From Gemmatimonadota bacterium (GTDB lineage Bacteria; Gemmatimonadota; Gemmatimonadetes; Gemmatimonadales; GWC2-71-9): a DNA stretch of 54,161 nucleotides. The stretch lies in assembly GCA_003223415.1 (NCBI GenBank), contig QHUY01000007.1:1-54161 (forward strand). The letters are read 5' to 3'. Below the pieces are notes generated by a model that ran no database searches, was not told where the DNA came from, and was given only the letters and a program-made list of their open reading frames with translations. This document shows, in pieces, positions 1,058 through 42,298 of this stretch. Made by a program: the position numbers and the translations under genes. How positions within the stretch are numbered: the stretch's first letter is position 1; each line of letters starts with the position of its first letter.

Positions 1058-1558
1058 ATGAACACTGCTTCGAAGCTCACGCTCGCCGCGCTCGCGCTGG
1101 TAGTTGCTGGGGCCACCACGGCCCAGGCCCAGGGCGTCAACGGGAGCATCACGGCGACTGCCAGCGTGCAGGCGCCGATCACGGTCAGCGGCACGCGGGG
1201 CCTGGATTTCGGCAACGTATTCCCTGGCATCAGCAAGACTATCGCTGTGGGCGACCCCGGCGCCGGCCTCTTTAGCGTCACTGGTCAGGCGAGCACCCAG
1301 ATCACCTACGCCTTCACGCTGCCGGGCAACCTGACGTTCGGCCTTAACAACCTGCCGATCAGCCCGTGGACTGGTTACGTGAACACCACGAACTCCACCT
1401 CGGGTGGTTCGACCTTCCCTCCCTCGGCGGTGGCGGCCAACGCCACGCTGAGCGGCAGCGGCGCCCTCTTCTTCTTCGTCGGTGCCACAGTATCGCCGCC
1501 GAATAACCTGCCGGCAGGGTCGTATACCGGTACGGTGACGTTGACGGTGTCCTACTAA
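1058..1558 (+). CDS. DUF4402 secreted protein, probable major fibre subunit
   Basis: 166 residues. A cleavable signal peptide (MNTASKLTLAAL... ending AQAQ) is followed by a beta-rich domain with the DUF4402 hallmark L-x-F-G-x-x-x-P-G (LDFGNVFPG, near residue 50) and the closing strand AGSYTGTVTLTVSY. DUF4402 proteins resemble fimbrial adhesins/subunits. Four downstream genes encode two more DUF4402 proteins, a PapD-like chaperone and an usher-like barrel, so this is probably an exported, chaperone-handled fibre subunit. The ATG at 1058 is preferred over an upstream in-frame codon because of the GGAGAGGGA site 8-16 nt before it and the signal peptide. It is followed by a perfect 15-bp hairpin before the next gene. 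Confidence 0.8.
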   Translation: MNTASKLTLAALALVVAGATTAQAQGVNGSITATASVQAPITVSGTRGLDFGNVFPGISKTIAVGDPGAGLFSVTGQASTQITYAFTLPGNLTFGLNNLPISPWTGYVNTTNSTSGGSTFPPSAVAANATLSGSGALFFFVGATVSPPNNLPAGSYTGTVTLTVSY

Positions 1559-1586
1559 TCGGACAACGATTAGGCGGTCTGCTGGC

Positions 1587-1627
1587 CTGCGCCGGCAGGG
1601 GTAGCTCGACCCCCCCTGCCGGCGCAG
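1587..1627 (+). terminator. Perfect 15-bp hairpin after the first DUF4402 gene
   Basis: CTGCGCCGGCAGGGG (1587-1601) pairs perfectly with 1613-1627 around an 11-nt loop, starting 28 nt after the stop codon. There is no U-tract behind it. It is therefore more likely a partial terminator or an mRNA 3' end stabiliser, which would make the first subunit more abundant than the chaperone and usher, as in classical pilus operons. Confidence 0.6.
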
Positions 1628-1651
1628 TCGCAAATAGGCCACTCATTGATC

Positions 1652-2119
1652 ATGCGCTTCCGTCCGCTCTCGCTCGCGCTCGTCCTGTTGGGCCCGGCAT
1701 CGCTCGCGGCCCAGGGCAAGCCCATCACGGTCCAGGGGGTGCGATCCCTGACGTTCGGAGCGGTGCTGCCGGGAGTGCCGCGCGTGATCTCGCGGACCGA
1801 TCCCGTGAACAGCGGGCAGTACGATATTACCGGCGCGAACAACAACCAGGTGCAGCTCAGCTTCACCCTTCCGAACGTCATGAACGGGCCGGCGGGCGCG
1901 ACGATGCCTATCGTCTTCGGCGGTAACGACGCTGGCTACTCTCAGTCTCAGGCGATCGGGAGCCAGGTGGCGTTCGATCCGAAGCAGTCGTTCCTGGCGA
2001 CCCTGAACAAGAATGGCCGGGGATCCGTCTTCGTGGGCGCGACGGCGCGGCCAACTCCCACGCAGCGGGCCGGCAGCTACACGGCGACGCTCACACTCAC
2101 GGTGGCCTACTTCCCATGA
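1652..2119 (+). CDS. DUF4402 secreted protein, second fibre subunit
   Basis: 155 residues with a signal peptide (MRFRPLSLALVLLGPASLAAQ) and the DUF4402 motif LTFGAVLPGVP near residues 32-42, closing with AGSYTATLTLTVAYFP. A paralogue of the gene before it. The ATG at 1652 is taken; a TTG two codons upstream is also possible. The last four bases (ATGA, 2116-2119) are shared with the chaperone start, which indicates translational coupling. It probably forms a minor or tip subunit of the same fibre; this role is inferred from the operon. Confidence 0.75.
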   Translation: MRFRPLSLALVLLGPASLAAQGKPITVQGVRSLTFGAVLPGVPRVISRTDPVNSGQYDITGANNNQVQLSFTLPNVMNGPAGATMPIVFGGNDAGYSQSQAIGSQVAFDPKQSFLATLNKNGRGSVFVGATARPTPTQRAGSYTATLTLTVAYFP

Positions 2120-2949
2120 GCCGCGGGCTGCTGGTGCCCCTGGTGCTGCTCACCGTGGCAGCCGCCACGCTTGCGGCCCAAGGTGTGGTGATCGCTCCCC
2201 ACGCGGTTTACATCGACGCGCGGGTCCGTAGCGCCTCGGTCCTGCTCTACAATCCCAACCCGGAGCCGGCGGAAGTCACGATCTCGACCTTTTTCGGCTA
2301 CCCGGTGACCGATTCGCTGGGGCGTATCGTGCTGCGCACGGTGGACCGCCCCGACTCGACGGCACCGTCGGCCGCCGGGTGGATCCAGGCATTTCCCCGG
2401 CGGCTCACGGTCGTGCCGCTCGAGCGTCAGACCATCCGCCTGCTCGCCACACCGCCGCCAAGCCTGCCCGACGGCGAGTACTGGGCGCGCCTCGTGATCG
2501 CGGCCAAAGGCGGCCAAGTGCCCATCACGGGCGTGACCGACACGGCCAAAGTCAAGGTCGGCCTCACCCTCGAGGTGCGGACGATCATCGGGATGGCGTA
2601 CCGCAAGGGCGCGGTGCATACCGGGGTCGCGATCTCCCGCCTACGTGGTGCGGTGGTCGGTGATTCGCTCGAAGTCTGGAGCCGGATCGAGCGCCAGGGG
2701 AACGCCGCCTACGTCGGTACGATTCACGGCTCGCTGGTGGACTCCGCGGGTCGGGTGCGGGCCGAATTCCGCGCGCCGATCGGCGTCTACTACATGCTGG
2801 AACCTCGCTACGCGGCCGCCGTGGGCGCTCTGGCACCGGGCCGCTACTGGCTGAAGCTCGAGCTGACGACGGAGCGCGAGGACCTCGCGCCCGAGGTGAT
2901 CCTGCCGAGCGCGGCCGTCCGCGACTCGGTCGAACTGCGGATCCCGTGA
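2116..2949 (+). CDS. PapD-like periplasmic pilus-assembly chaperone
   Basis: 277 residues with an N-terminal signal peptide (LVPLVLLTVAAATLAAQG). Features typical of pilus chaperones follow: an early strand of the type I-x-P-x-x-V-x-I (VIAPHAVYIDAR), paired positions binding stretched subunit strands (ASVLLYNPNPEPAEV), and the block FPRRLTVVPLERQTIRLL followed by LPDGEYWARL near residues 95-130. This block corresponds to the P-R/K-x-x-x-L-x-P-G-x-x-Q-x-x-R-x segment of chaperones. It is slightly longer than FimC/PapD (about 230 residues). It overlaps the preceding subunit gene by 4 nt and the next by 1 nt. Function is inferred from fold-level similarity and context. Confidence 0.7.
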   Translation: MSRGLLVPLVLLTVAAATLAAQGVVIAPHAVYIDARVRSASVLLYNPNPEPAEVTISTFFGYPVTDSLGRIVLRTVDRPDSTAPSAAGWIQAFPRRLTVVPLERQTIRLLATPPPSLPDGEYWARLVIAAKGGQVPITGVTDTAKVKVGLTLEVRTIIGMAYRKGAVHTGVAISRLRGAVVGDSLEVWSRIERQGNAAYVGTIHGSLVDSAGRVRAEFRAPIGVYYMLEPRYAAAVGALAPGRYWLKLELTTEREDLAPEVILPSAAVRDSVELRIP

Positions 2950-3302
2950 TGCGCCGCGCGCTCGGTGTGGTCCTCTGGGCCGCGCTCGTCGCCATGCCCC
3001 GCCCGGCTCATGGGCAGAACAGCGGCGGGATCAGCGTCGACGCCGAGGTGATCGCTGTCGGGATGACCGTTACGAAACTGAGCGATCTCAACTTCGGACA
3101 GGTCACGAAGGGGATCGCGACTTCGGTGCTGCCGACCGACGCCGGCGCCGGCGAGTGGCAGGCGCTGGGGAACAAGAATGCGAACGTACAGATCACGTTC
3201 ACGCTGCCAACGCAGCTGACTAACATTCAGGCGTTGCCGGGCAGCACGATGCCGATCACCTTCAGCGCGACGTCAGCGCGCTGGCGCCGGGATGTCAACT
3301 AG
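2949..3302 (+). CDS. DUF4402 secreted protein, C-terminally truncated third subunit
   Basis: 117 residues: a signal peptide ending PAHGQ, then the DUF4402 motif (LNFGQVTKG) and the strand VQITFTLPTQL. The reading frame stops abruptly after PITFSATSARWRRDVN. The roughly 50 residues that carry the second half of the fold and the closing A-G-S-Y-T-x-T strand in its two paralogues are missing. The stop lies 18 bp before a G8-A-G7 tract inside the next gene, so a small deletion (or assembly error) is likely. The ATG at 2949 overlaps the chaperone stop (TGATG); a GTG one codon earlier is possible. Confidence 0.6.
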   Translation: MRRALGVVLWAALVAMPRPAHGQNSGGISVDAEVIAVGMTVTKLSDLNFGQVTKGIATSVLPTDAGAGEWQALGNKNANVQITFTLPTQLTNIQALPGSTMPITFSATSARWRRDVN

Positions 3303-3307
3303 CCCCC

Positions 3308-5896
3308 ATGCTGCCCGGTCGGGGGGGGAGGGGGGGCACGCTCCTGTCGCTGCTCCCGCTCCAACTGTTGGCCGGCGCTCTGTCTGCCACGGTTCCGCGC
3401 CCTCCCGCCGACACCGAGCCCGAGCCGGTGATCCTCGAGCTGCAGCTCGGGCGGCTCGCCAGTCGCACCGTGCCGGCGTTCCGGGTCCGCAGCGAGGCGC
3501 TGGTACCGATGTCCGAGTTCCTGCAGCTCGCCGAGGTCGGCTACGTGCTCAGTCCGGAAGGGCGGATCGAGGCGTCGATCGATCCGGGCGGCCGCAAGCT
3601 CGTCATCGACGCGCGCCGTGACACGATGAGCTACGGGGACCACCGGGTGCGACTCGAACCGGAGTTCCGGCTGTTCCGCAACGGCGAGCTCTTCGTCGGC
3701 GCCGAGCGTCTAGGTGACCTGCTCGGCGTGCGGATCGTGGTGAGCTGGGCCGACCTCACCGTCGTCGTCACCGATGCGAGCGGCCTGCCGGTGGGCCGGC
3801 GGGCGCAGCGCGAGGCGGCGCGCGCGGCGTTTCGGCGCCGCTTCGCCGGGCCCCCGCCGGAGCTGGCCTTGGCCTTGGAGCGGCCGCGCTGGGATGGGAT
3901 GGTGGTCGATTACTCGTTTCTCGCGCCCAGCAGCGGCGTGGGCGCGGGCGGCGCGTACAGCGTCGCGGTCGGCGCCGACGCGTTCGGGGGCTCGCTCGAG
4001 CTAGGCGCGTCGAGCGTCGGCCGCCTCGACGCGGGCGTGGCGCGCATCGATGGCTCGTGGACCGGCGTCTGGCGGGACAGCCGTTGGCTCAGGCAGGTGC
4101 GCCTCGGTGACGGGCCGGTGTCGGGGCCGAACCCATGGATCCAGCGCGGGGTCTTGGCCACCAATGCCCCGTTCGTCCGCCCTTCCTTCGTCGGGACGAC
4201 GCGATACGACGGGCGTCTCGAGCCGGGGTGGGCGCTCGAGGCCTACCGCGGCTCGGAGCTCGTCGCCTTCGACTCCACCGACGCCCAGGGGCGCTTCGCC
4301 GTGGACCTGCCGGTGCGCTACGGGGAGAACCCCGTGGACTTCGTGGCGTACGGGCCGTTTGGACAGATCCGGCAGTTCAACCGCACCTACCGCGTGCTGA
4401 GCGAGCTGCTGCCGGCGCGGACGTTCGAGTACGGCGTGTCCGGCGGCGTCTGCCGGACGCCCCAGTGCGCAGCGACGACGAACCTCGACCTGCGCTACGG
4501 GATCTCCCCGCGCGCCACCGTGCAGGCGGGCTTCGACCGGTTCTGGCGGGACACCCTCCCCGACCTGTTTCATCCTTACGGCGCGGTGACCGTCGCGCCG
4601 ACGACGACGTGGGGTATCGAGCTCGACGGTGTCGGCGGCGCGCTCGCACGGGGCACCCTGCGCTACGAGCCGTCTCTCGACTTACGCCTGATGGCGTCGT
4701 ACACGGCGTTCGACCGCGGCACCGTCGCACCGATTCTCTCGCCGGCGGGACAGCGCTCCGACTGGCAGGTGCTCGGGTTCCTGCGCCCGATCCCGGGGCA
4801 GGGGTTCTTCTACCTCGAGAGCAGCCTGGAGCAGGCCGCGAGCGACGCGGGGACCATTACACGGGCCCGCCTCGGCGCGTCGCTGCAGGCGAACGAAGTG
4901 CGGGTGCTCCCCTACGTCCGTCTCGAGCGGGACGTGACGACGCGAGGGTTCATGGGCGTCAGCACGTCAGTGCTGCCGCGACCACAGTGGGGGCCGGTCT
5001 TCGGCAATGTGCTGCTGCGCTCCTCGATCGAGTGGCAGCAGGCGGGGCCCGCACTGGTCCGGCTCAATTCGTACGCACTCTCGGCCGCCCGGCCGATCGG
5101 GCCGGCAACGCGCCTGGAGGCGGGCGTGAGCTGGACCAGAGGAGGCCAGGGGGCGACGCTACAGCTGGCTTTGTCGAGCTACCTGCCGATGCTGCGCTCG
5201 TACACGACGGTGACCGCGCCTGCCGCGGCCCCCGCGTTCGCCACCCAGTACGTGCAGGGCTCGCTGCTGTGGGACCGGCGGGACGGCCGGCTCACCGGCG
5301 CGCCGGGGCCATCGCTGGAGCGGTCGGGGCTGACGGGACGGGTGTTCCTCGACGAGAACGGCAACGGTCGCTACGACCCGGGTGAGCCGACGCTGCCGCG
5401 CGTGCGCGTGCTGGTGGGCTCGAGCAGCGCGACCACCGACTCGAGCGGGGTGTTCCGCGTCTGGGACATCGTGCCGTTCGAGCCGATCCTGGTGACCGTG
5501 GATTCGCTCACCCTGGAGTCGCCGCTCCTCGTGCCGGTGTACGCCGCCGCGAGCATCGTGCCGGGCCCGAACCGGTTCCGCACGCTTGACATCCCGATCG
5601 TGCAGGCAGGCGTAGTCGAGGGACAGGTAGTGCGGGCCGAACAGGGAGGCGGGGTTGGCGGCGTCACGCTGCTGCTGACCGAGCGCAACAGCGCCGCGCA
5701 GCGCACGGTCACCACATTCAGCGACGGGGGCTTCTATACGCTCGGAGTGAAGCCTGGTGACTACCAGTTGACGGTGGCGCCGCAGGTGTTGGAGGCGCTG
5801 GGCGTGCGGGCTGTGCCGCTGCGCTTCACGCTGGCGCCCGGCGCGCAAGGCGTCGGCCGTTCCGGAATCGAGATCCGGCTCACCCCGACGCGGTAG
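3308..5896 (+). CDS. Usher-like outer-membrane protein with SdrD-like C-terminal module
   Basis: 862 residues, about the size of a FimD/CS1-type usher. After a signal peptide (LLSLLPLQLLAG) comes a domain of about 120 residues rich in short strands. A long beta-barrel region follows, containing the usher-like segment W-A-L-E-A-Y-R-G-S-E-L, then D-A-Q-G-R-F, then YGENPVDFVAYGPFGQ (about residues 308-358), which resembles the barrel/plug entry of ushers. Residues about 675-765 form an SdrD-B-like module with a calcium-type loop DENGNGRYDPGE (near 682). Residues about 770-840 resemble a carboxypeptidase-regulatory-like beta-sandwich, in the place of the usual CTD. The first residues are distorted by a G8-A-G7 run. 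It probably secretes and assembles the DUF4402 subunits. Confidence 0.65.
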   Translation: MLPGRGGRGGTLLSLLPLQLLAGALSATVPRPPADTEPEPVILELQLGRLASRTVPAFRVRSEALVPMSEFLQLAEVGYVLSPEGRIEASIDPGGRKLVIDARRDTMSYGDHRVRLEPEFRLFRNGELFVGAERLGDLLGVRIVVSWADLTVVVTDASGLPVGRRAQREAARAAFRRRFAGPPPELALALERPRWDGMVVDYSFLAPSSGVGAGGAYSVAVGADAFGGSLELGASSVGRLDAGVARIDGSWTGVWRDSRWLRQVRLGDGPVSGPNPWIQRGVLATNAPFVRPSFVGTTRYDGRLEPGWALEAYRGSELVAFDSTDAQGRFAVDLPVRYGENPVDFVAYGPFGQIRQFNRTYRVLSELLPARTFEYGVSGGVCRTPQCAATTNLDLRYGISPRATVQAGFDRFWRDTLPDLFHPYGAVTVAPTTTWGIELDGVGGALARGTLRYEPSLDLRLMASYTAFDRGTVAPILSPAGQRSDWQVLGFLRPIPGQGFFYLESSLEQAASDAGTITRARLGASLQANEVRVLPYVRLERDVTTRGFMGVSTSVLPRPQWGPVFGNVLLRSSIEWQQAGPALVRLNSYALSAARPIGPATRLEAGVSWTRGGQGATLQLALSSYLPMLRSYTTVTAPAAAPAFATQYVQGSLLWDRRDGRLTGAPGPSLERSGLTGRVFLDENGNGRYDPGEPTLPRVRVLVGSSSATTDSSGVFRVWDIVPFEPILVTVDSLTLESPLLVPVYAAASIVPGPNRFRTLDIPIVQAGVVEGQVVRAEQGGGVGGVTLLLTERNSAAQRTVTTFSDGGFYTLGVKPGDYQLTVAPQVLEALGVRAVPLRFTLAPGAQGVGRSGIEIRLTPTR
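3321..3336 (+). repeat. G8-A-G7 homopolymer tract at the start of the usher-like gene
   Basis: Eight G, one A, seven G, five codons into the usher-like frame and just after the truncated DUF4402 gene. A one-base change would shift the usher frame before its signal peptide. This could act as a phase-variable switch or be an assembly weak spot. Confidence 0.5.
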
Positions 5897-5940: not shown

Positions 5941-7263
5941 ATGAATCGCCTCGGCTGGATTGACGCTCCAGGGCGGTCGCTCGCCCAATTCGCACGGCTC
6001 GCGGCGTTCGCCGAGGCCGCGCGCGCCGGCGGACTCACCCATACGCTCGTCTGCGGGATGGGTGGGTCGAGCCTCGCGCCGCGGGTCCTGGCCGCCACGT
6101 TCGAGCGCTCCAGCCTCGAGGTGCTCGACAGCACCGACCCCGCCGCGGTGCTCGCCGCCGAGCGTTGGCACGATCCCCACGAGACGTTGTATCTCATCGC
6201 CAGCAAATCCGGCACCACCGTGGAAACGATCGCGGCCTATCGCTACTTCGCGGCCCGCGCCCGGCCGGACCAGTTCGTCGCCGTCACGGATCCCGGCACG
6301 CCTCTCGAAACGCTCGCTCGCGAAGCCGGCTTCCGCGCCGTGTTCGAGCATCCCGCCGACGTCGGCGGCCGGTACGCGGCGTTGACGGTGGTCGGCATGC
6401 TGCCGGCGGCGCTCCTCGGGGTCGACGGCGCCACGTTGCTCGAGCGGGCGCTGGCATTGGACGTGGCGGCTGCCAAGGCGCTCGGCATCCGGCTCGCCGA
6501 GGCCGCTGTCGCGGGTCGGGACAAGCTGGCGCTCCGACCGCCGCCCCCCACGGCAAGCCTGGCGGGCTGGATCGAGCAGCTGGTAGCCGAGAGTACGGGA
6601 AAAGAAGGGCGGGGAGTGGTTCCCGTCGTCGGCTGCCCGGACACCGGCGGGCCCGACGTCCAGGCGATCAGCGAGTTCTCGGCGGATCCGCTGGACCTTG
6701 GCGCCGAGTTCCTGCGGTGGGAGTATGCGACGTGGGCGCTATGCGAGCGGCTGGGCGTGAACGCATTCGACCAGCCGGACGTCGAGGCCGCCAAGACGTT
6801 CGCCCGTGCGGCGCTGGAGCGGGCCCCGCGGGCCAGACCGGAGCGGCTGCCGACGCTCAGCCCCGAAGCGCTGCGTCGCGCCGCCAAGGCGCGCGACTAC
6901 TTCGCGATCCTCGCGTACCTGCCGCCCACGCCGGAGACTGAAGCGCGACTCGAGGCCGTGCGCGCGGCCTGGGGTCGGTCGCTGGCAGAGGGAGTGGGCC
7001 CTGTCACCACGCTAGGGTTCGGGCCGCGCTACCTGCACTCGACCGGTCAGCTCCACAAGGGCGGGCCGAACACCGGGCTGTTTCTGGTGATCACCGCCGC
7101 CGACGCCGTGGACGTCGACATCCCGGGGATGGGGCGAACGTTCGGGCAGCTCAAGCGGGCGCAGGCACTCGGCGACATCAAGGCGCTGCTCGCCAAGGGG
7201 CGGCGCGTCGCGCACGTGCACCTGGCACGCCCGGAAGACGTGACGGCGCTGGCCGCAGTCTAA
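5941..7263 (+). CDS. pgi: Glucose-6-phosphate isomerase (PGI-domain type found in Tal-Pgi fusions)
   Basis: Interconverts glucose-6-phosphate and fructose-6-phosphate in the cytosol. 440 residues. The SIS-type sugar-phosphate loop SKSGTTVET lies near residue 90, and the C-terminal active-site block HSTGQLHKGGPNTG near 366. Sequence and length match the isomerase half of bifunctional transaldolase/PGI proteins rather than the 550-residue classical enzyme; no transaldolase domain is attached here. There is no Shine-Dalgarno site, but a TATGTT element ends 9 nt before the ATG. The stop codon TAA is formed by the first bases of an inverted-repeat element (7261-7322). Confidence 0.9.
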   Translation: MNRLGWIDAPGRSLAQFARLAAFAEAARAGGLTHTLVCGMGGSSLAPRVLAATFERSSLEVLDSTDPAAVLAAERWHDPHETLYLIASKSGTTVETIAAYRYFAARARPDQFVAVTDPGTPLETLAREAGFRAVFEHPADVGGRYAALTVVGMLPAALLGVDGATLLERALALDVAAAKALGIRLAEAAVAGRDKLALRPPPPTASLAGWIEQLVAESTGKEGRGVVPVVGCPDTGGPDVQAISEFSADPLDLGAEFLRWEYATWALCERLGVNAFDQPDVEAAKTFARAALERAPRARPERLPTLSPEALRRAAKARDYFAILAYLPPTPETEARLEAVRAAWGRSLAEGVGPVTTLGFGPRYLHSTGQLHKGGPNTGLFLVITAADAVDVDIPGMGRTFGQLKRAQALGDIKALLAKGRRVAHVHLARPEDVTALAAV

Positions 7264-32483: not shown

Positions 32484-33597
32484 GCTCTTCGAGCTCACCC
32501 TGCCGCTGGTCGAGCCCTTCCTCATCTCGGGGGGCGCGATCACCGAGCGGCGCTCCCTCGTCATCGCGCTGCACGACGCGGAGGGCCACCTCGGCTACGG
32601 CGAGTCGCCCCCGTTCGAGCTGCCGTTCTATTCGGAGGAGACGCTCGCCAGCGCCACCGACCTGGTGCGGCGGGTACTGCTGCCGCGCGTCGTCGGCAGA
32701 GAGTTCGAGACGCCGGAAACGCTCGACGCGGTGCTGCGGGACGGCGTCCGTGGGAACCCGTTCGCCCGTGCGGGCGTGGAGACCGCCGCCTGGGACCTCG
32801 AGGCGCACCGCCGCGCGGTCGGGGTCGCCACGCTGCTGGGGGAGCGGCTCGGCGCCCGGCCCGCCACGGCGATTCCCTGCGGCGTCGCCCTCGGCATCCC
32901 GCAGGACGGCAAGCTCGACACCCTCAGCCGGTGGGTGTACGACGCGCTGCAGCTCGGCTATCGCCGGGTAAAGATCAAGGTGAGGCCCGGCTGGGACGAC
33001 GCCGCGGTGCGCGCCGCGCGCGAGGCCATGGCCGGGGTCGATGTGCCGCTCACCGTGGACGCCAACGGTGCCTACGAGTGGCCCGCGCACGAGCGCAACC
33101 TCCGCGCGCTGGACGAAGCGGGTCTGCTCTACATCGAGCAGCCGCTCGCGCCCGACGAGCTGGTGGGCCACGCGCGGCTCGCCCGGGTGCTGCAGACGCC
33201 TGTGTGCCTCGACGAGACGCTGAAGAGCGCCGCCCACGCGCGCCAGGTCGTCGAGCTGGAGGGGCCGCGCGTGTGGAACATCAAAGTGCACCGCGTGGGC
33301 GGACTCACCGAAGTGTGCCGCATCTACCGGATCGCCGAGCCATACGCCGCCGAATTGTGGGCCGGCACGATGCCCGAGTCGGGGATCGGCTCGCAGGCGT
33401 CGCTTGCGGTGGCCGCGCTGCCCCTGTGCGCCTATCCCTCGGATCTCGAGCCCAGCGCGCGCTGGTACGGCCGGAGCGCGGACGTCATCAAGCTCACGAT
33501 GGGCAAAGACGGCCGCATGGCTGTCCCTGACCAGGCGTGCGCGCGGCTGCTGGACCAGGGCCGGTTCCGAGCGGCGACACGGCGAGTGGATGCTTGA
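32464..33597 (+). CDS. Enolase-superfamily enzyme, OSBS / N-succinylamino-acid racemase type
   Basis: 377 residues. Start MRIVSAELFELTLPLVEPF is typical of MenC/NSAR proteins. The capping domain is followed by the barrel with the K-x-K acid/base pair (RRVKIKVRPG, near 171), the metal ligands Asp (VDANGAY, near 198), Glu (IEQPLAPDEL, near 224) and Asp (CLDETLKSA, near 249), and the second Lys (NIKVHRVGG, near 273). All catalytic positions are present. No other men genes are nearby, so an N-acylamino-acid racemase or related catabolic role is likelier than menaquinone synthesis (inference). Confidence 0.85.
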   Translation: MRIVSAELFELTLPLVEPFLISGGAITERRSLVIALHDAEGHLGYGESPPFELPFYSEETLASATDLVRRVLLPRVVGREFETPETLDAVLRDGVRGNPFARAGVETAAWDLEAHRRAVGVATLLGERLGARPATAIPCGVALGIPQDGKLDTLSRWVYDALQLGYRRVKIKVRPGWDDAAVRAAREAMAGVDVPLTVDANGAYEWPAHERNLRALDEAGLLYIEQPLAPDELVGHARLARVLQTPVCLDETLKSAAHARQVVELEGPRVWNIKVHRVGGLTEVCRIYRIAEPYAAELWAGTMPESGIGSQASLAVAALPLCAYPSDLEPSARWYGRSADVIKLTMGKDGRMAVPDQACARLLDQGRFRAATRRVDA

Positions 33598-33656
33598 CGT
33601 CCTGCCCCGGGAGTGCAGAATCAGCGACGCGATCCTCCACTTCTCAGGAGCACCCG

Positions 33657-36553
33657 GTGACACTCCCTCACTGCCGCACCGCTTGCGGGCTCGCGATTCT
33701 CACAGTGACCGCCCTGCCGCCCGCCCGCGCCCAGCAGGTGGATCCCGCGTTGTTCACCGGCCTGCATTGGCGCATGATCGGCCCGTTCCGCGGCGGTCGC
33801 ACCGTCGGCGCGGTCGGCGTCCCGGGCCAGCCCAGCGTCTTCTACATCGGCGTCAACAACGGCGGCGTCTGGAAGACCACCGATTACGGCCGCACCTGGA
33901 CCCCGATCTTCGACGACCAGCCGACCGGTTCGATCGGCGCCATCGCGGTCGCCGGGGCGGACCCGAACACGATCTATGTGGGGAGCGGGGAAGGGCTGCA
34001 GCGCCCCGACCTCTCCGTCGGCGACGGGATCTACAAGACGACCGACGGGGGCAAGACCTGGCAGCACCTGGGGCTCCGAGACGGCCAGCAGATCGCCCAG
34101 ATTCTCGTGGACCCCCGCGATGCCAATCGGGTCTTCGTGGCGGTGCTGGGCCACCCCTACGGTCCCAACGCCGAGCGCGGCGTGTACCGCTCCACCGACG
34201 GCGGCGCGACGTGGCAGCCGCTGCTCACGAAGGATGAAAACACCGGCGCAGTGGATCTGGCGTTCGATCCCGCCAATTCCCTGACGGTGTTCGCGGTGCT
34301 GTGGGCCGCTCGGCAGGCGCCGTGGGAGGTCGGCAGCTCCTGGACGATCTCGGCCAACAACGGGCTCTACAAGTCCAGCGACGGCGGCACCACATGGCGC
34401 CAGATCACGGCGGGACTCCCCACGGCCGCCGACGGGCTCGGGCGGATCGGTCTCGCCTTCGCTCCGAGCGCGCCCCAGCGGCTATATGCGGTCCTGGGGG
34501 CCACGAAGAGCGGCGGGGTCTACCGCTCCGACGACGGCGGCGAAAACTGGCGCCGCGTGAACGGCGACCCTCGCCTGTGGGGTCGAGACGGGGATTTCAA
34601 CGAAGTGAGGGTGGACCCGAAGAACGCCGACGTGGTCTACGTGGCCAACGTGGTCACGTGGAAGTCCACCGACGGGGGACAGACGTTCGCCGCGTTCCGC
34701 GGCGCGCCGGGCGGGGACGACTACCACCGCCTGTGGATCAACCCCGACGATCCGAAGATCATCCTCCTCGCCGGCGATCAGGGCGCGGTGATCACCGTGA
34801 ACGGCGGCGAAACCTGGAGCTCGTGGTACAACCAGCCCACGGCACAGTTCTACCACGTCAGCACCGACAATGCGTTCCCCTACCGCGTGTACGGTGGCCA
34901 GCAGGAGAGCGGCTCGGCGGGCGTGGCCAGCCGCGGCGGCGACGGCGAGATCACGTTCCGCGAGTGGCACCCGGTCGGCGCCGAGGAGTACGGCTACGTC
35001 GCGCCCGACCCGCTGCGCCCCAACGTCATCTTCGGCGGCAAGCTGTCGCGGTTCGATTGGACGACAGGAGACGCGCAGGACGTGACGCCGGAGCCGGTGC
35101 GCGCGGGCCAGTACCGCTTCGTGCGCACGATGCCGCTGCTGTTCTCGCCGCTGGACCCGCGGATCCTCTACTTCGCGGGCAACGTGGTCTTCAGGACGCT
35201 GAACGGCGGACACAGCTGGCAGGTGATCAGCCCCGACCTGACGCGCGCTTCGTACGACGTGCCGGCGACCTTGGGCGCGTTCACCGGACTCGATCCCGAG
35301 CACGGCCAGCACCGCGGGGTGGTCTACACCATTGCCCCCTCGTTCACGCGCATCAACCTGCTGTGGGCGGGGACCGACGACGGACTGATCCACGTGACGC
35401 ACGACGGTGGGCGGACCTGGAAAAACGTCACCCCCCCCCCCCCCACATCCTTCGGACCAAGGATGGTGGGAAGACCTGGGCGGAAGTCGTGGCGGGAATC
35501 CCGGCGAATGAGGTCGTGAACGCGGTGCGTGAGGACCCCGTGCGACGCGGCCTGCTGTTCGCGGGCTCCGAGCGCGCCGTCTACGTCTCCTTCGATGACG
35601 GCGACCATTGGCAGTCGCTGCGGCTCGACATGCCCGCCACGGCGATCCGCGACCTCGTGATCCACGACAGCGACCTCGTGGTCGGCACCCACGGCCGGTC
35701 CTTCTGGATCCTCGACGATATCACGCCGCTGCGGCAGCTCGACGCGCGCACGCGTGACGCCGCGGCCGTGCTGTTCCGCCCGGCCGGTGCGGTCCGAGTG
35801 CGCTGGAACCGGAACCCCGACACCCCGCTGCCGCCCGACGAGCCGGCGGGGAAGAACCCGCCCGACGGCGCGATCCTCGATTACTACCTGCTGTCTGCCG
35901 CGACCGGGCCCGTCACGCTCACGGTACTCGACCGCCGTGGGACGGTGGTGCGCCAGTACTCCAGCGCCGATGTGCTGGCGCCGCCCGAGACCACGCTCAA
36001 CATCCCGAACTGGTGGATCCGACCACCGCAGGTTCTCTCCGCCGACGCCGGGATGCATCGGTTCGTCTGGGACCTGCACTATCCGCCGCCGGCGGCACTG
36101 TCGCACGAGTACCCGATTTCGGCCACCTATCGCGACACGCCGCGCGAGCCGCGCGGTCCCTGGGTGCTCCCCGGGATCTACACGGTGAAGCTGTCGGTGG
36201 ACGGGAAGACTTACACGCAGCCGCTCACGGTGCGGATGGACCCGCGCGTGCGCACGCCGGCCGCCGGTCTCGCGCTGCAGTTCACGCTGGCGCAGCGGCT
36301 CGTCACCGCGCTGCGGCAGGATTCTGCCGCGCTCGGTGAGGTGCGGCAGCGGAAATCGGCGGGGCAGGGCGCGCCCGTCGCGGCGCTCGATTCCCTCGAC
36401 ACCGCTCTCGCCCGGCTCAACGGGCAGCTCGCCCGCGCCTACGGCGTGATCGAGGGCGCCGACGCGACACCCACCACCCAGGCGGCGGCTGCAGTCGGGA
36501 AGCTGGAGCGGGAACTCGCCGCCTTGCTGGCGCGCTGGCGCCGGGCACGCTGA
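33657..36553 (+). pseudogene. Secreted sortilin-like (VPS10/BNR-repeat) protein, frameshifted at a C14 run
   Basis: GTG start with AGGAG 7-11 nt before it, and a signal peptide ending PPARAQQ. The BNR/VPS10 propeller repeats follow (S/T-x-D-G-G-x-T-W: TDYGRTWTP, TDGGKTWQH, TDGGATWQP, SDGGTTWRQ, NGGETWSS, DGGRTWKN). At 35431-35444 a run of 14 C breaks the frame. The -1 reading continues with RTKDGGKTWAEVVAGIPANEVV, VYVSFDDGDHWQSL and GTHGRSFWILDDITPL, ending at 36553 after a C-terminal beta-domain and a helical tail. About 40 residues normally found between NVTPP and Y-x-Y-R-T are absent at the same point. Such proteins are abundant in Gemmatimonadota and Acidobacteriota; peptidase- or glycan-related roles are proposed but unproven. 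Confidence 0.8.
35431..35444 (+). repeat. C14 homopolymer at the frameshift of the sortilin-like gene
   Basis: Fourteen consecutive C, the longest single-base run in the window, exactly where the reading frame changes and about 40 family residues are missing. Either a slippage-prone site or a misassembled or collapsed stretch. Confidence 0.8.
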
Positions 36554-37916: not shown

Positions 37917-40913
37917 ATGAGCCACGGGATGAACCGGCGACGGTTCCTGAAAGTGCTCAGCGTGACGGGCGGGGGTGCGGCCGTCCTGTCGGGCTGCGGC
38001 ATCGGCCCCGAGCCGACCGAGAAGCTGATCCCGTACCTCATCGCGCCCGAGGACCAGATCCCCGGGACGCCCACCTGGTACAGCACCACCTGCCGCGAAT
38101 GCGCGGCGGGCTGCGGCCTGCACGCCAAGGTGCGCGAGGGCCGCGTGATCAAGCTCGAGGGCAACCCCGATTCGCCGATCAACCACGGGCGGTTGTGCGC
38201 CCGCGGCCAGGCCGGGCTGCAGGGGCTCTATAACCCCGACCGCATCGCGGGCCCGCTGGTCCGCAAGGCCCCAGGGCGCCTCGAGGAGACCACCTGGGAC
38301 TCGGGCGTCGCCCTGCTGGCCCAGAAGGTGGCCGAGGCGAAACGGAAGGGGATCGTCTTCGTCACCGGGCACGAGACCGGCGCGTTCGGCGAGCTCGTGG
38401 ACGACTGGCTGAAGGCGGTGGGCGGCCGGCACGTCACCTACGAGCCGTTCGCCTTCGAGGCCCTGCGCGAGGGCAACCGCCTCGCCTTCGGAACAAGCGC
38501 CGTTCCGTTCTACGATTTCGCGAGCGCGAGGTACATCCTCTCGTTCGGCGCCGACTTCATGGAGACCTGGCTCTCCCCGGTCGGCTTCCAGAACGGCTTC
38601 TCCCGCGCCCACGGGTTCGAGGCGGGGCGCGATGCGGCGATGGCGAAATTCGTCTCCGTGGCCCCGCGGATGTCGCTCACCGGCATGAGCGCCGATGAGT
38701 GGATCGCGGTGGCCCCGGGCACGGAAGGAGTGCTGGCGCTCGCCATGGCCCACGTGATCGTGAGCGGCAGGCTCGCTCGCGTGCCGGGCGAGATGGGGCT
38801 GGCAGCCCGGCTGGCGAACAACCTTGCCGCCTACGCACCGGAGAATGTGGCCCGGACGACCGGGGTCGGAGCCCACGTAGTGGAGCGCCTGGCCCGCGAA
38901 TTCGCGGCGTCCGGCGCCGGGCTCGCCGTCGCGGGTGGCATGGCGACGCACTATCCGAACGGCGCGGAGATCGTCGCCGCGGTGAACGTCCTCAATTTCG
39001 TCGCCGGCGCCGTCGGCAAGACCGTGAAGTTCGGTCCCGACCTCGCGGTGGACGCCGGGTCGTTCCGCGACGCGGCGGCGCTGCAGGCCGACTTGGCCGC
39101 CGGCACGGTGGCGCTGCTGCTCGTCCATGGCGCCAATCCGGTCTACTCCCTGGGAGGGTTCGCTCAGGCGTTGGGCAAGGTCGCCTTCACGGTGTCCTTC
39201 TCCTCCTACCTGGACGAAACGGCGAGCGCGGCCGACTTGGTGCTCCCCGACTTGCACCCGCTCGAGCAGTGGAACGACGCCCGGCCTCGCACGGGGGTCT
39301 ACGCGCTGCAGCAGCCGGTGATGCAGCCCGTCTTCCCCAACACGATGCACACAGGCGACGTGCTGCTGCGCGCGTCGGGCAAACCCGGCACGTTCCGAGA
39401 TTACCTGCAGGGGAAGTGGCGCGTGCTGCACCAACGCCACGGCAGAGGGAAGAGCTTCGAGCAATGGTGGATGGAAGCGGTGCAGCACGGCGGGATCTAC
39501 GACGAGGTTCCGACCCGCACGGTCCGTCTGAGCCCGAGCGCGATCCCTCCGGGACTCGCGGCGACCCGGCGTGGCGATGATCGCTATCCACTGACCGTCT
39601 TCCCGCACCCCGCGCTGCACGACGGCCGCGGCGCCAACAAGCCGTGGCTGCAGGAGCTCCCCGACCCGGTCTCGAAGATCAGCTGGCACGGCTGGGTGGA
39701 AGTCAACCCCGAGACGGCGGGGAAGTGGCAGGTGGCGAGCGGCGACATCGTCCTGCTGACGTCGCCGTACGGGGCGATGCGGGCGCCCGTGTGGATCACG
39801 CCCTCCGTCATGCCGGGCGTCCTCGCCGTCCCGACCGGCCAGGGGCACACCGCCTACGGCCGTTACGCTCGCGACCGCTCCTTCAACGCGTTTCAACTGC
39901 TCGGCGACTCGCCCGCCGCGTATGGCGGCCGGGAATTCCTGGTCAGCGTGACGGTCGCCAAGACCGGCGACCACCGCCGGCTCGCGACCGCCGAGGGCAA
40001 CGCGCGCGAGCAGGGTGAGGGGATCATCGAAGCCCTGCCGCTCGCGAAGGCGCGGCAGCTCCGGGCCGGGCAGCATCCGTTCGAAGAGAAGCAGATCCCC
40101 GACTACGCCGAGGCGGCCCGGGAGGGCTGGGCCGAGGCGCAGCACGAGAAGGCGTCGCTCGGCAATTACGCGGGGGCTCACCCGCGCTGGGCGATGGCCA
40201 TCGACCTCGCCAAGTGCACCGGCTGCTCGGCGTGCGTGACGGCCTGCTACGCCGAAAACAACCTCGCCACGGTGGGCGAAGAGTTGATAACGCGGCACCG
40301 CGAGATGAGTTGGATGCGGATCGAGCGCTACTTCACGGGCGGAGAGCGCGGCGTGCCGGTCGGCGCCGTCGTCACACCGATGCTGTGCCAGCAGTGCGGC
40401 AACGCGCCGTGCGAGCCGGTCTGCCCGGTGTACGCCGCCTACCACACGCCTGACGGGCTCAACGGGCAGGTCTACAACCGCTGCATCGGCACGCGCTACT
40501 GCTCCAACAACTGTCCGTACAAAGTCCGCTACTTCAACTGGTTCAACTACGCGGAGCCGGGCGGGGAGTGGGAGAGCTGGCCCGAGCCGCTCCAGCTGCT
40601 GCTCAACCCCGACGTGACGGTGCGCGAGAAGGGTGTGATGGAGAAGTGCACCTTCTGTGTGCAGCGCATCCGCGCGGCGCAGAACCAGGCCCGGCTCGAG
40701 GACCGGGCGGTGCACGACGGCGACATCGTCCCCGCCTGTGCCCAGTCCTGCCCGTCCGAGGCGATCGTCTTCGGCGACCTGAACGACCCGCGCTCCCGCG
40801 TCCACGCGCTGGCCGAAGACCCGCGCGGCTACCACGTGCTGGCCGGGCTCAACACCAAGCCGGGGATCACCTACCTGGCCAAGGTGACGGCCGGTCCCGG
40901 GGCGGAGGCCTGA
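37917..40913 (+). CDS. actB: Alternative complex III subunit B, molybdopterin-like/iron-sulphur protein
   Basis: 998 residues. A twin-arginine signal (NRRRFLKVLSVTGGGAAVLSGC) is followed by a molybdopterin-oxidoreductase-like domain (residues about 50-700) that in known ActB proteins holds no Mo. A ferredoxin-like domain follows with four Cys groups: CTGCSACVTACYAENN (near 768), CQQCGNAPCEPVCPVY (near 824), CIGTRYCSNNCPYK (near 858) and CTFCVQRIR...CAQSCPSEAI (near 912-950). These are the expected three [4Fe-4S] and one [3Fe-4S] centres. The N-terminus also keeps C-x2-C-x3-C (TCRECAAGCG) and a later LCARGQ, a possible extra cluster. The stop overlaps the actC start by one base. Confidence 0.93.
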   Translation: MSHGMNRRRFLKVLSVTGGGAAVLSGCGIGPEPTEKLIPYLIAPEDQIPGTPTWYSTTCRECAAGCGLHAKVREGRVIKLEGNPDSPINHGRLCARGQAGLQGLYNPDRIAGPLVRKAPGRLEETTWDSGVALLAQKVAEAKRKGIVFVTGHETGAFGELVDDWLKAVGGRHVTYEPFAFEALREGNRLAFGTSAVPFYDFASARYILSFGADFMETWLSPVGFQNGFSRAHGFEAGRDAAMAKFVSVAPRMSLTGMSADEWIAVAPGTEGVLALAMAHVIVSGRLARVPGEMGLAARLANNLAAYAPENVARTTGVGAHVVERLAREFAASGAGLAVAGGMATHYPNGAEIVAAVNVLNFVAGAVGKTVKFGPDLAVDAGSFRDAAALQADLAAGTVALLLVHGANPVYSLGGFAQALGKVAFTVSFSSYLDETASAADLVLPDLHPLEQWNDARPRTGVYALQQPVMQPVFPNTMHTGDVLLRASGKPGTFRDYLQGKWRVLHQRHGRGKSFEQWWMEAVQHGGIYDEVPTRTVRLSPSAIPPGLAATRRGDDRYPLTVFPHPALHDGRGANKPWLQELPDPVSKISWHGWVEVNPETAGKWQVASGDIVLLTSPYGAMRAPVWITPSVMPGVLAVPTGQGHTAYGRYARDRSFNAFQLLGDSPAAYGGREFLVSVTVAKTGDHRRLATAEGNAREQGEGIIEALPLAKARQLRAGQHPFEEKQIPDYAEAAREGWAEAQHEKASLGNYAGAHPRWAMAIDLAKCTGCSACVTACYAENNLATVGEELITRHREMSWMRIERYFTGGERGVPVGAVVTPMLCQQCGNAPCEPVCPVYAAYHTPDGLNGQVYNRCIGTRYCSNNCPYKVRYFNWFNYAEPGGEWESWPEPLQLLLNPDVTVREKGVMEKCTFCVQRIRAAQNQARLEDRAVHDGDIVPACAQSCPSEAIVFGDLNDPRSRVHALAEDPRGYHVLAGLNTKPGITYLAKVTAGPGAEA

Positions 40914-42298
40914 TGGCGCAAACGACCGCGCCCCCTCCCCCCCCCTCCCCCACCCAGGCCCCTGCGACCCGGCTCACTTACGACTTCGTCACGCGCGCCA
41001 TCGCGCAGACGCTCGGCCACCCCGGGAAGGGCTACTTCGCGCTCCTCGGCAGCGCGGTGACGCTGCTGGCGATCGGGATCATCTGCCTCCTCTTTCTGCT
41101 GCGCTACGGTCTGGGCCTCGCGGGCTACTCGCACCCCGTTTACTGGGCCGTCTACATCACCTGCTTCGTGTTCTGGGTGGGCATCGCCCATTCGGGCACG
41201 CTGATCTCCGCGATCCTGTTCCTGTTCCGCTCGGGGTGGCGCACCGCGATCTACCGCACCGCCGAGGCGATGACGGTGTTCGCGGTGATGACGGCGGCGT
41301 TGTTCCCGCTCATCCACATCGGCCGTCAGTGGTACTTCTACTGGACTCTGCCGTACCCCAACGAGCGCGGCCTGTGGCCCAACTTCAAGTCGCCGCTCAT
41401 CTGGGACGAGTTCGCGATCGGGACGTACTTCACCGTCTCGACCGTGTTCCTCATCATGGGACTGATTCCGGACATCGCCGCGGTGCGGGATGTCGTCACC
41501 GGGTGGCGCCGCAGGCTCTACAGCCTCACCGCCCTCGGCTGGCGGGGCACGAACGAGCAGTGGCGCCACTACACGCGCGGCTATCTCTACCTCGCCGCCC
41601 TCGCCACCCCCCTCGTCCTCTCGGTGCACAGCGTGGTGTCCTGGGACTTCGCGATGGCGATCGTGCCGGGGTGGCACGCCACGCTGTTCGCGCCCTATTT
41701 CGTGGCCGGGGCCATCTACTCCGGCGTGGCGATGGTGATCACGCTGCTGGTGCCGATCCGCAAGCTGTTCCACCTGGAAGACATCATCACCGTCCACCAC
41801 TTCGAGAACCTGGCCAAGCTGTGCCTGCTCACGGGCATGATCGTGAGCTACTCGTACGTCACGGAGAACTTCGTCGCCTGGTTCAGCGGCAATCCGCACG
41901 AGCGCGCGGCGTTCTGGTATCGCGCGTTCGGCCCGTTCTGGTGGGCGAGCTGGACCATGAACATCTGCAACGGGATCCTCCCCTGGCTGTTGTGGGTCAA
42001 GAGGGTGCGCACCAACATCGTGGCGCTGTTCGTGATCTCGATCTTCGTGAACATCGGCATGTGGTTCGAGCGCTTCGTCATCATCGCCGTGTCGCTGGCG
42101 GGCGAGCCGTTCGAGCGCTGGTCCAACGCGGGCTACAACCCGACTTGGGCCGACTGGGGCATCATGGCCGGCAGCTTCGGCTGGTTCTTCATGTGGTTTC
42201 TGCTGTTCGCCAAGAATTTCCCGGCCGTCTCGATCTCTGAGGTGAAGGAAGTGCTGGCGCCGCCGCGGCGGGGACGGGGGAGGGGGGGGGCCGCGTGA
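40913..42298 (+). CDS. actC: Alternative complex III subunit C, NrfD-type quinol-binding membrane protein
   Basis: 461 residues, ten predicted membrane helices, NrfD/PsrC family (GIAHSGTLISAILFLFRSGWR, then AMTVFAVMTAALFPLIHIGR near 85-130; YSYVTENFVAWFSGNPHERAAFWYR near 305). This subunit holds the menaquinol site near the periplasm. The N-terminal Pro-rich stretch (TTAPPPPPSPTQAP) comes from C-runs at 40931-40950. Starts TGATG over the actB stop and ends overlapping actD. Confidence 0.93.
   Translation: MAQTTAPPPPPSPTQAPATRLTYDFVTRAIAQTLGHPGKGYFALLGSAVTLLAIGIICLLFLLRYGLGLAGYSHPVYWAVYITCFVFWVGIAHSGTLISAILFLFRSGWRTAIYRTAEAMTVFAVMTAALFPLIHIGRQWYFYWTLPYPNERGLWPNFKSPLIWDEFAIGTYFTVSTVFLIMGLIPDIAAVRDVVTGWRRRLYSLTALGWRGTNEQWRHYTRGYLYLAALATPLVLSVHSVVSWDFAMAIVPGWHATLFAPYFVAGAIYSGVAMVITLLVPIRKLFHLEDIITVHHFENLAKLCLLTGMIVSYSYVTENFVAWFSGNPHERAAFWYRAFGPFWWASWTMNICNGILPWLLWVKRVRTNIVALFVISIFVNIGMWFERFVIIAVSLAGEPFERWSNAGYNPTWADWGIMAGSFGWFFMWFLLFAKNFPAVSISEVKEVLAPPRRGRGRGGAA

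Follow-up and report, generated by a model that had tools for sequence, protein, structure and literature searches.

Closest described systems and the locus

Chaperone-usher systems have been divided into classical, alternative (here alternate) and archaic classes (PMC4654587). In the archaic (sigma) class, of which Csu of Acinetobacter baumannii is an example, a chaperone and an usher accompany immunoglobulin (Ig)-like pilins with N-terminal donor strands, and CsuE is a two-domain tip adhesin (PMC9452303). A comparable set of genes is present in a 54,161-nucleotide (nt) stretch of DNA (the window; contig QHUY01000007.1, assembly GCA_003223415.1) from a Gemmatimonadota soil bacterium; the window begins at a contig end in a genome of 3.53 Mb and 280 contigs. 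Five genes on the forward strand at 1058-5896 encode DUF4402 subunit A (1058-1558), DUF4402 subunit B (1652-2119), a PapD-like periplasmic chaperone (2116-2949), a truncated DUF4402 subunit C (2949-3302) and an outer-membrane usher (3308-5896). We conclude that this locus is very probably a pilus operon of the chaperone-usher type and belongs to a fourth class not recognised before.

The gene order, strand and coordinates given in an initial annotation of this DNA were confirmed. The 1-4 nt overlaps that it described occur at two junctions only, B/chaperone (4 nt) and chaperone/C (1-4 nt); A and B are separated by about 90 nt and C and the usher by 5 nt.

Each known class resembles the locus in part. 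Archaic systems share with it a two-domain tip protein, a related pilin domain (SCPU) and the nearest usher by profile. Unlike them, the family studied here has its own usher clade, DUF4402 subunits and, in the window, the order subunits, chaperone, (C), usher, together with a calcium-type loop in the C-terminal domain of the usher and no match of the Pfam Usher model or, for the window chaperone, of PapD_N. Classical FimD and PapC have the barrel and plug predicted here, with the same arrangement of C-terminal domains, and gave the best structural matches, but their identity to the usher is about 11%, and the usher here carries SdrD- and carboxypeptidase-regulatory-like domains. Alternate systems (EcpC/CfaC; TcfC, CooC_C) have the chaperone closest to the one here, whereas their usher link is the weakest, their subunits and adhesin are different and their ushers form a separate clade.

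Fold and class of the usher

PapC and FimD follow a common plan, a 24-strand barrel with a plug after strand 6. The AlphaFold (AF2) model of the 862-amino acid (aa) usher, built from a 55-sequence alignment, had a mean pLDDT (per-residue confidence) of 92.8 and a pTM (global confidence) of 0.80. Strands were counted by hand from DSSP of the model, giving six at mature residues 169-259, a six-strand insertion at 268-337 and eighteen at 347-630. The predicted usher thus has 6 + 18 = 24 barrel strands (3890-5275) with a six-strand plug between strands 6 and 7 (4181-4399), and N- and C-terminal periplasmic domains. The plug holds a conserved motif, YGENPVDFVAYGP, and was paired by hhalign with the plug segment of FimD. 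By its position in the model and its pattern of strands and helices, the segment at 3413-3769 (mature residues 10-128) is what we take, by analogy with FimD, to be the N-terminal domain, with a predicted role in docking the chaperone-subunit complex.

When the model was compared with the Protein Data Bank (PDB) by Foldseek, ranks 1-18 were all FimD or PapC (E 2.8e-28 to 3.7e-10). The matches that followed covered the C-terminal domains of the model alone or were unrelated barrels (such as LptD, OmpU and OprC) at about 3e-5 or worse, with the exception of SlpA at 6.7e-6. The initial annotation had staked its reading beforehand on a predicted barrel with a plug, and the model contains both.

Profile-profile comparison with known-class ushers drawn from annotated records led to the same group of proteins. 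With hhalign, the usher family matched archaic ushers at 98.6% (E 5.3e-16), classical ushers at 97.0% (E 8.5e-11) and alternate ushers at 80.6% (E 1.3e-5), and reversed-alignment controls gave 0.2-0.4%. The comparison with known ushers that had been proposed for the locus was significant for the archaic and classical classes and empty for the controls. As yardsticks, alternate against classical ushers gave 1.7e-8 and archaic against classical 1.8e-41; judged from these profiles, the ushers of DUF4402 operons stand at about the same distance from the known ones as alternate ushers do.

In a maximum-likelihood tree of 47 ushers, those of DUF4402 operons formed a clade of 31 with support 100/99, and archaic, classical and alternate ushers each formed one clade with 100% bootstrap, the class boundary being drawn from small samples of these three classes (six archaic ushers). 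The tree was rooted at the midpoint, which carries no evidential weight, and the alignment includes several long rows with an unusual composition. The family thus lies outside the classical and alternate clades, and none of its 55 ushers matched the classical model PF00577 or the alternate models TcfC/CooC_C. It also lies outside the archaic clade, with DUF4402 rather than SCPU subunits. The initial annotation had described a divergent version of the pathway; the separate clade bears this out, although the system extends beyond a single phylum.

A Pfam/NCBIfam scan of the window proteins saw the usher by its C-terminal domains alone (two beta-sandwiches, 5303-5887; CarboxypepD_reg 9.2e-9, SdrD_B 3.9e-6). 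The initial annotation had correctly noted the calcium-type loop DENGNGRYDPGE (5351-5386) and a second beta-sandwich, and had read them as standing instead of the usual usher domains. As they occupy the same place and form two beta-sandwiches as in ordinary ushers, they are sequence-divergent equivalents of CTD1 and CTD2 with an added calcium-type loop, not a foreign replacement. A strict form of the loop pattern was found in 42 of 55 family ushers and in all four plasmid ushers, and most of the others have a near variant. It was absent from this place in all 16 known-class ushers, SfmD having one chance match further upstream. The loop may bind calcium.

Two long G runs lie just past the start codon of the usher gene (window 3320-3340), where slippage or a sequencing error is possible, and the start of the gene is uncertain.

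The chaperone

The chaperone (277 aa, with a signal peptide) gave no Pfam match by itself. However, PapD_N was matched by 11 of 45 members of its family (best 1.1e-5), and hhalign linked the family to alternate (6.9e-8), classical (5e-6) and archaic (1.3e-5) chaperones, with reversed controls at 0.1-0.4 and classical against alternate chaperones at 2.5e-7. These results agree with the PapD-like assignment made initially. Three members matched TcfC weakly. Matches to the Ig-like model fn3_5 raised the possibility of a different family, which was rejected because the PapD_N match is stronger. The protein appears to have the two domains of a PapD-like chaperone, the second being assigned from length and a partial alignment.

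Archaic and alternate chaperones have on strand F an invariant arginine to which the C-terminus of the subunit is anchored (PMC4654587). The arginine of a YWxR motif in the first domain of the family is nearly invariant and may be its equivalent, the alignment setting the two residues two positions apart.

DUF4402 subunits

Subunits A and B scored 29.9 and 30.0 bits with Pfam DUF4402 (PF14352; cut-off 25.2), as expected from the initial annotation; the truncated subunit C gave no Pfam match. Subunit A has a signal peptide, an N-terminal extension (QGVNGSITATASVQAP), which we propose as a donor strand, and one pilin domain. In the AF2 model of mature A (pLDDT 96.4) the chain ends one residue past the last strand and residues 1-17 lie outside the sheet. 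All of the first ten matches in the PDB were to subunits of chaperone-usher systems (Csu, CFA/I, Fim and Pap), with E values of 1.9e-3 to 5.5e-3. In its predicted fold, then, the DUF4402 protein resembles an incomplete-Ig pilin with an N-terminal extension, and extensions of alternating pattern are present in A and C; the initial annotation would have given way had these proteins folded as complete Ig domains. At the sequence level, DUF4402 had no significant link to FimA-type pilins (hhalign 2.6%).

Sequence searches of the PDB were uninformative for all three protein families. The usher profile matched fragments of Bap and SdrD alone, the DUF4402 profile matched nothing, and the best relevant match of the chaperone profile was CfaA at 0.39. 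The case therefore rests on structure and on profile-profile comparison.

Subunit B does not have the extension. From the predicted mature N-terminus to a conserved FG motif there are 17 residues in B and 28 in A and C, and the stretch missing from B is the alternating, donor-strand-like segment (SITATASVQ in A). Across 38 loci, the median distance to this motif was 16 residues for the subunit nearest upstream of the chaperone, compared to 28 for the others (P 4e-10). Bacteroidota-type loci encode at the place of B a protein of two DUF4402 domains, again without an extension, an architecture that a two-domain tip adhesin of the CsuE kind would be expected to have. As B lacks the N-terminal donor strand and has this two-domain, extension-free counterpart, it is likely the tip subunit. 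The extension-free subunit before the chaperone is a newly found feature of these operons, as is a conserved hairpin after subunit A.

In one relative (L058:2135-3016) a single frame joins A and B but lacks the end of A, either a natural fusion or a frameshift.

A hairpin between A and B

The gap between A and B contains a hairpin at 1587-1627 (forward strand) with two 15-nt arms of perfect complementarity. Among 28 gaps of this type from the window and its relatives, 23 folded with z below -2 compared to shuffled sequences (mean z -3.6). Such folding was found in 8.6% of random segments of the same loci and 11% of segments after usher stop codons. The stem sequences differ among distant members. 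In other pilus operons, hairpins 3' of major pilin genes raise the transcript share of that gene, and on this ground subunit A is probably the shaft subunit and major pilin. We propose that the hairpin acts as a partial terminator or messenger RNA stabiliser favouring A. A literature search returned no useful paper on pilin hairpins.

Distribution and operon linkage

Within the bacterial family of the source genome, 54 of 102 genomes gave an usher match, some of these being short C-terminal matches. In a profile search of the phylum the usher was present in 51 of 249 genomes, 46 of which also had the chaperone; a strong chaperone match occurred in none of the 198 genomes without an usher (Fisher P 6e-45). 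The gene grouping is therefore not due to chance. Of 48 chaperone genes, 44 precede the usher gene by no more than 2.5 kb in the same orientation. The Pfam Usher model gave a match in 2 of 121 genomes, whereas the profile built here did so in 51 of 249.

The order subunit, chaperone, usher recurs in Gemmatimonadota, Bacteroidota, Kapabacteria/Ignavibacteria, Balneolaceae, Zixibacteria and GN15. The same operon is carried by proteobacterial plasmids of Polaromonas, Pseudoalteromonas and Sphingopyxis. A tblastn search of subunit A against plasmids gave no match. On the Polaromonas and Sphingopyxis plasmids the RefSeq names are DUF4402 domain-containing protein, fimbria/pilus periplasmic chaperone and carboxypeptidase regulatory-like domain-containing protein; the usher is not annotated as such, and the system has therefore gone unseen as a whole. 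On plasmid 2 of Polaromonas sp. JS666 the operon lies between two IS6 transposase genes, and its relative on a second Polaromonas plasmid has an IS6 transposase nearby. These transposase genes suggest that the class moves between replicons.

DUF4402 was found in 49 of 54 cases and SCPU (PF05229) in one. Kapabacteria-type loci retain the chaperone and usher, but the place of DUF4402 is taken by small secreted proteins that are not recognised as such. Several small proteins upstream of the chaperone in L099, L106, L107, L109 and L110 end in a strand-like segment (for example TVSVTASI), and the small secreted proteins of these loci are possibly further pilin families. In three genomes of one genus (G114, G115 and G252) the usher and chaperone genes lie on separate contigs, both of them long in G115, so the pair may be split there.

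Alternative readings

Several points weigh against a fourth pilus class. The fold matches of DUF4402 have moderate E values (about 2e-3) and large root mean square deviations, and the donor strand is not inserted in the monomer model of A. The distances to the FG motif depend on signal-peptide cleavage sites from a crude rule of our own. Matches of the Pfam Usher model were absent from the 55 family members up to E 0.1, one further member giving a sub-threshold match, and the literature search found no expressed or imaged protein of the DUF4402-type class. Finally, the window operon may be partly degraded, because subunit C is broken.

This last point leads to the reading that the class is correct but that the operon in this genome is decaying and yields no fibre, which we consider unlikely and which is compatible with a fourth class for the family. 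Subunit C (117 aa) retains its signal peptide, donor strand and N-terminal half, but about 50 residues are missing from its C-terminus, the final strand among them. DNA alignment showed that about 180 bp of 3' sequence is missing and that seven relatives have the full gene (~165-175 aa); the C-terminal third is lost in this genome only, among those compared, and the window subunit is probably non-functional. About half of the genomes of the family have no usher match. On the other hand, the other four genes of the operon are intact, and the deletion could be an assembly error in a metagenome genome. C is also dispensable, as several relatives (L056, L063 and L073) do not have it. The truncated DUF4402 protein of the initial annotation is thus real in the window; as a feature of the class it was rejected in view of the full-length genes.

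It is less probable still that the family is a divergent branch of the archaic class. Archaic ushers are its nearest by profile (5e-16 to 6e-19), an archaic SCPU subunit scored 1.2e-10 with the DUF4402 profile built here, and a two-domain tip protein is common to both systems. However, the archaic-classical usher link is far closer than that of either to the DUF4402-type family, and in the 47-usher tree archaic and classical ushers join to the exclusion of that family (99/98). The chaperone is nearest to the alternate class, not the archaic. A true archaic locus with SCPU subunits, a PapD_N chaperone and a Pfam Usher match is also present in the same phylum (L135:6667-11280), so that both classes occur in Gemmatimonadota. 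This locus, first considered a relative because of its Pfam Usher match, was rejected as a family member.

It is very improbable that the barrel serves as a pore for secretion or anchors a surface layer, with DUF4402 proteins secreted as monomers: the usher C-terminal domains do resemble Gram-positive surface-protein modules (SdrD_B, CarboxypepD_reg), but the full pilus set of plug, 24 strands, N-terminal domain and dedicated chaperone is present, with several pilin paralogues that have donor-strand-like extensions and one that does not.

Proposed assembly

If the locus encodes a fourth class of chaperone-usher pilus, signal peptides would export A, B and C to the periplasm, where the chaperone would complete the unfinished Ig fold of each pilin and hand it to the N-terminal domain of the usher. 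Displacement of the plug would open the 24-strand pore. B would leave first as the tip, since without a donor strand it could only accept one, and A, having a donor strand, would polymerise by donor-strand exchange into the shaft, the hairpin lifting its level above that of the other gene products. The two C-terminal domains of the usher would hold the base of the growing fibre, presumably an adhesive surface structure. A more tentative view, possible though somewhat doubtful, is that the class, which is spread over several phyla, diverged anciently, perhaps before the split of the other three, and has calcium-dependent usher C-terminal domains.

Genomic setting

A genome-wide search revealed no further DUF4402 match outside the locus and no second usher match. 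The downstream neighbour (5941-7263) is a sugar-phosphate isomerase-like gene that does not obviously belong to the locus. Elsewhere in the window, a molybdopterin/4Fe-4S protein followed by an NrfD-like membrane protein (37917-42298) resembles an alternative complex III operon, and two overlapping frames matching Sortilin-Vps10/BNR (33537-36553) are perhaps a single frameshifted gene.

Significance

DUF4402 was not mentioned in 5.39 million open papers; subscription papers lay outside this search, and an earlier description is possible. Among titles and abstracts, no paper on a Gemmatimonadota usher system was recognised. The analysis assigns a function to DUF4402, which Pfam lists as a domain of unknown function, and names as ushers an outer-membrane protein family that standard annotation had missed. 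With it, a complete class of chaperone-usher system is placed in Gemmatimonadota, in relatives of Bacteroidota and in other groups. The machine is of one kind with E. coli type 1 pili but lies on a separate branch, which is found in several phyla. This distant branch can be used to ask how pilus assembly arose, and the tip and shaft subunits predicted here are testable in plasmid-bearing laboratory strains.

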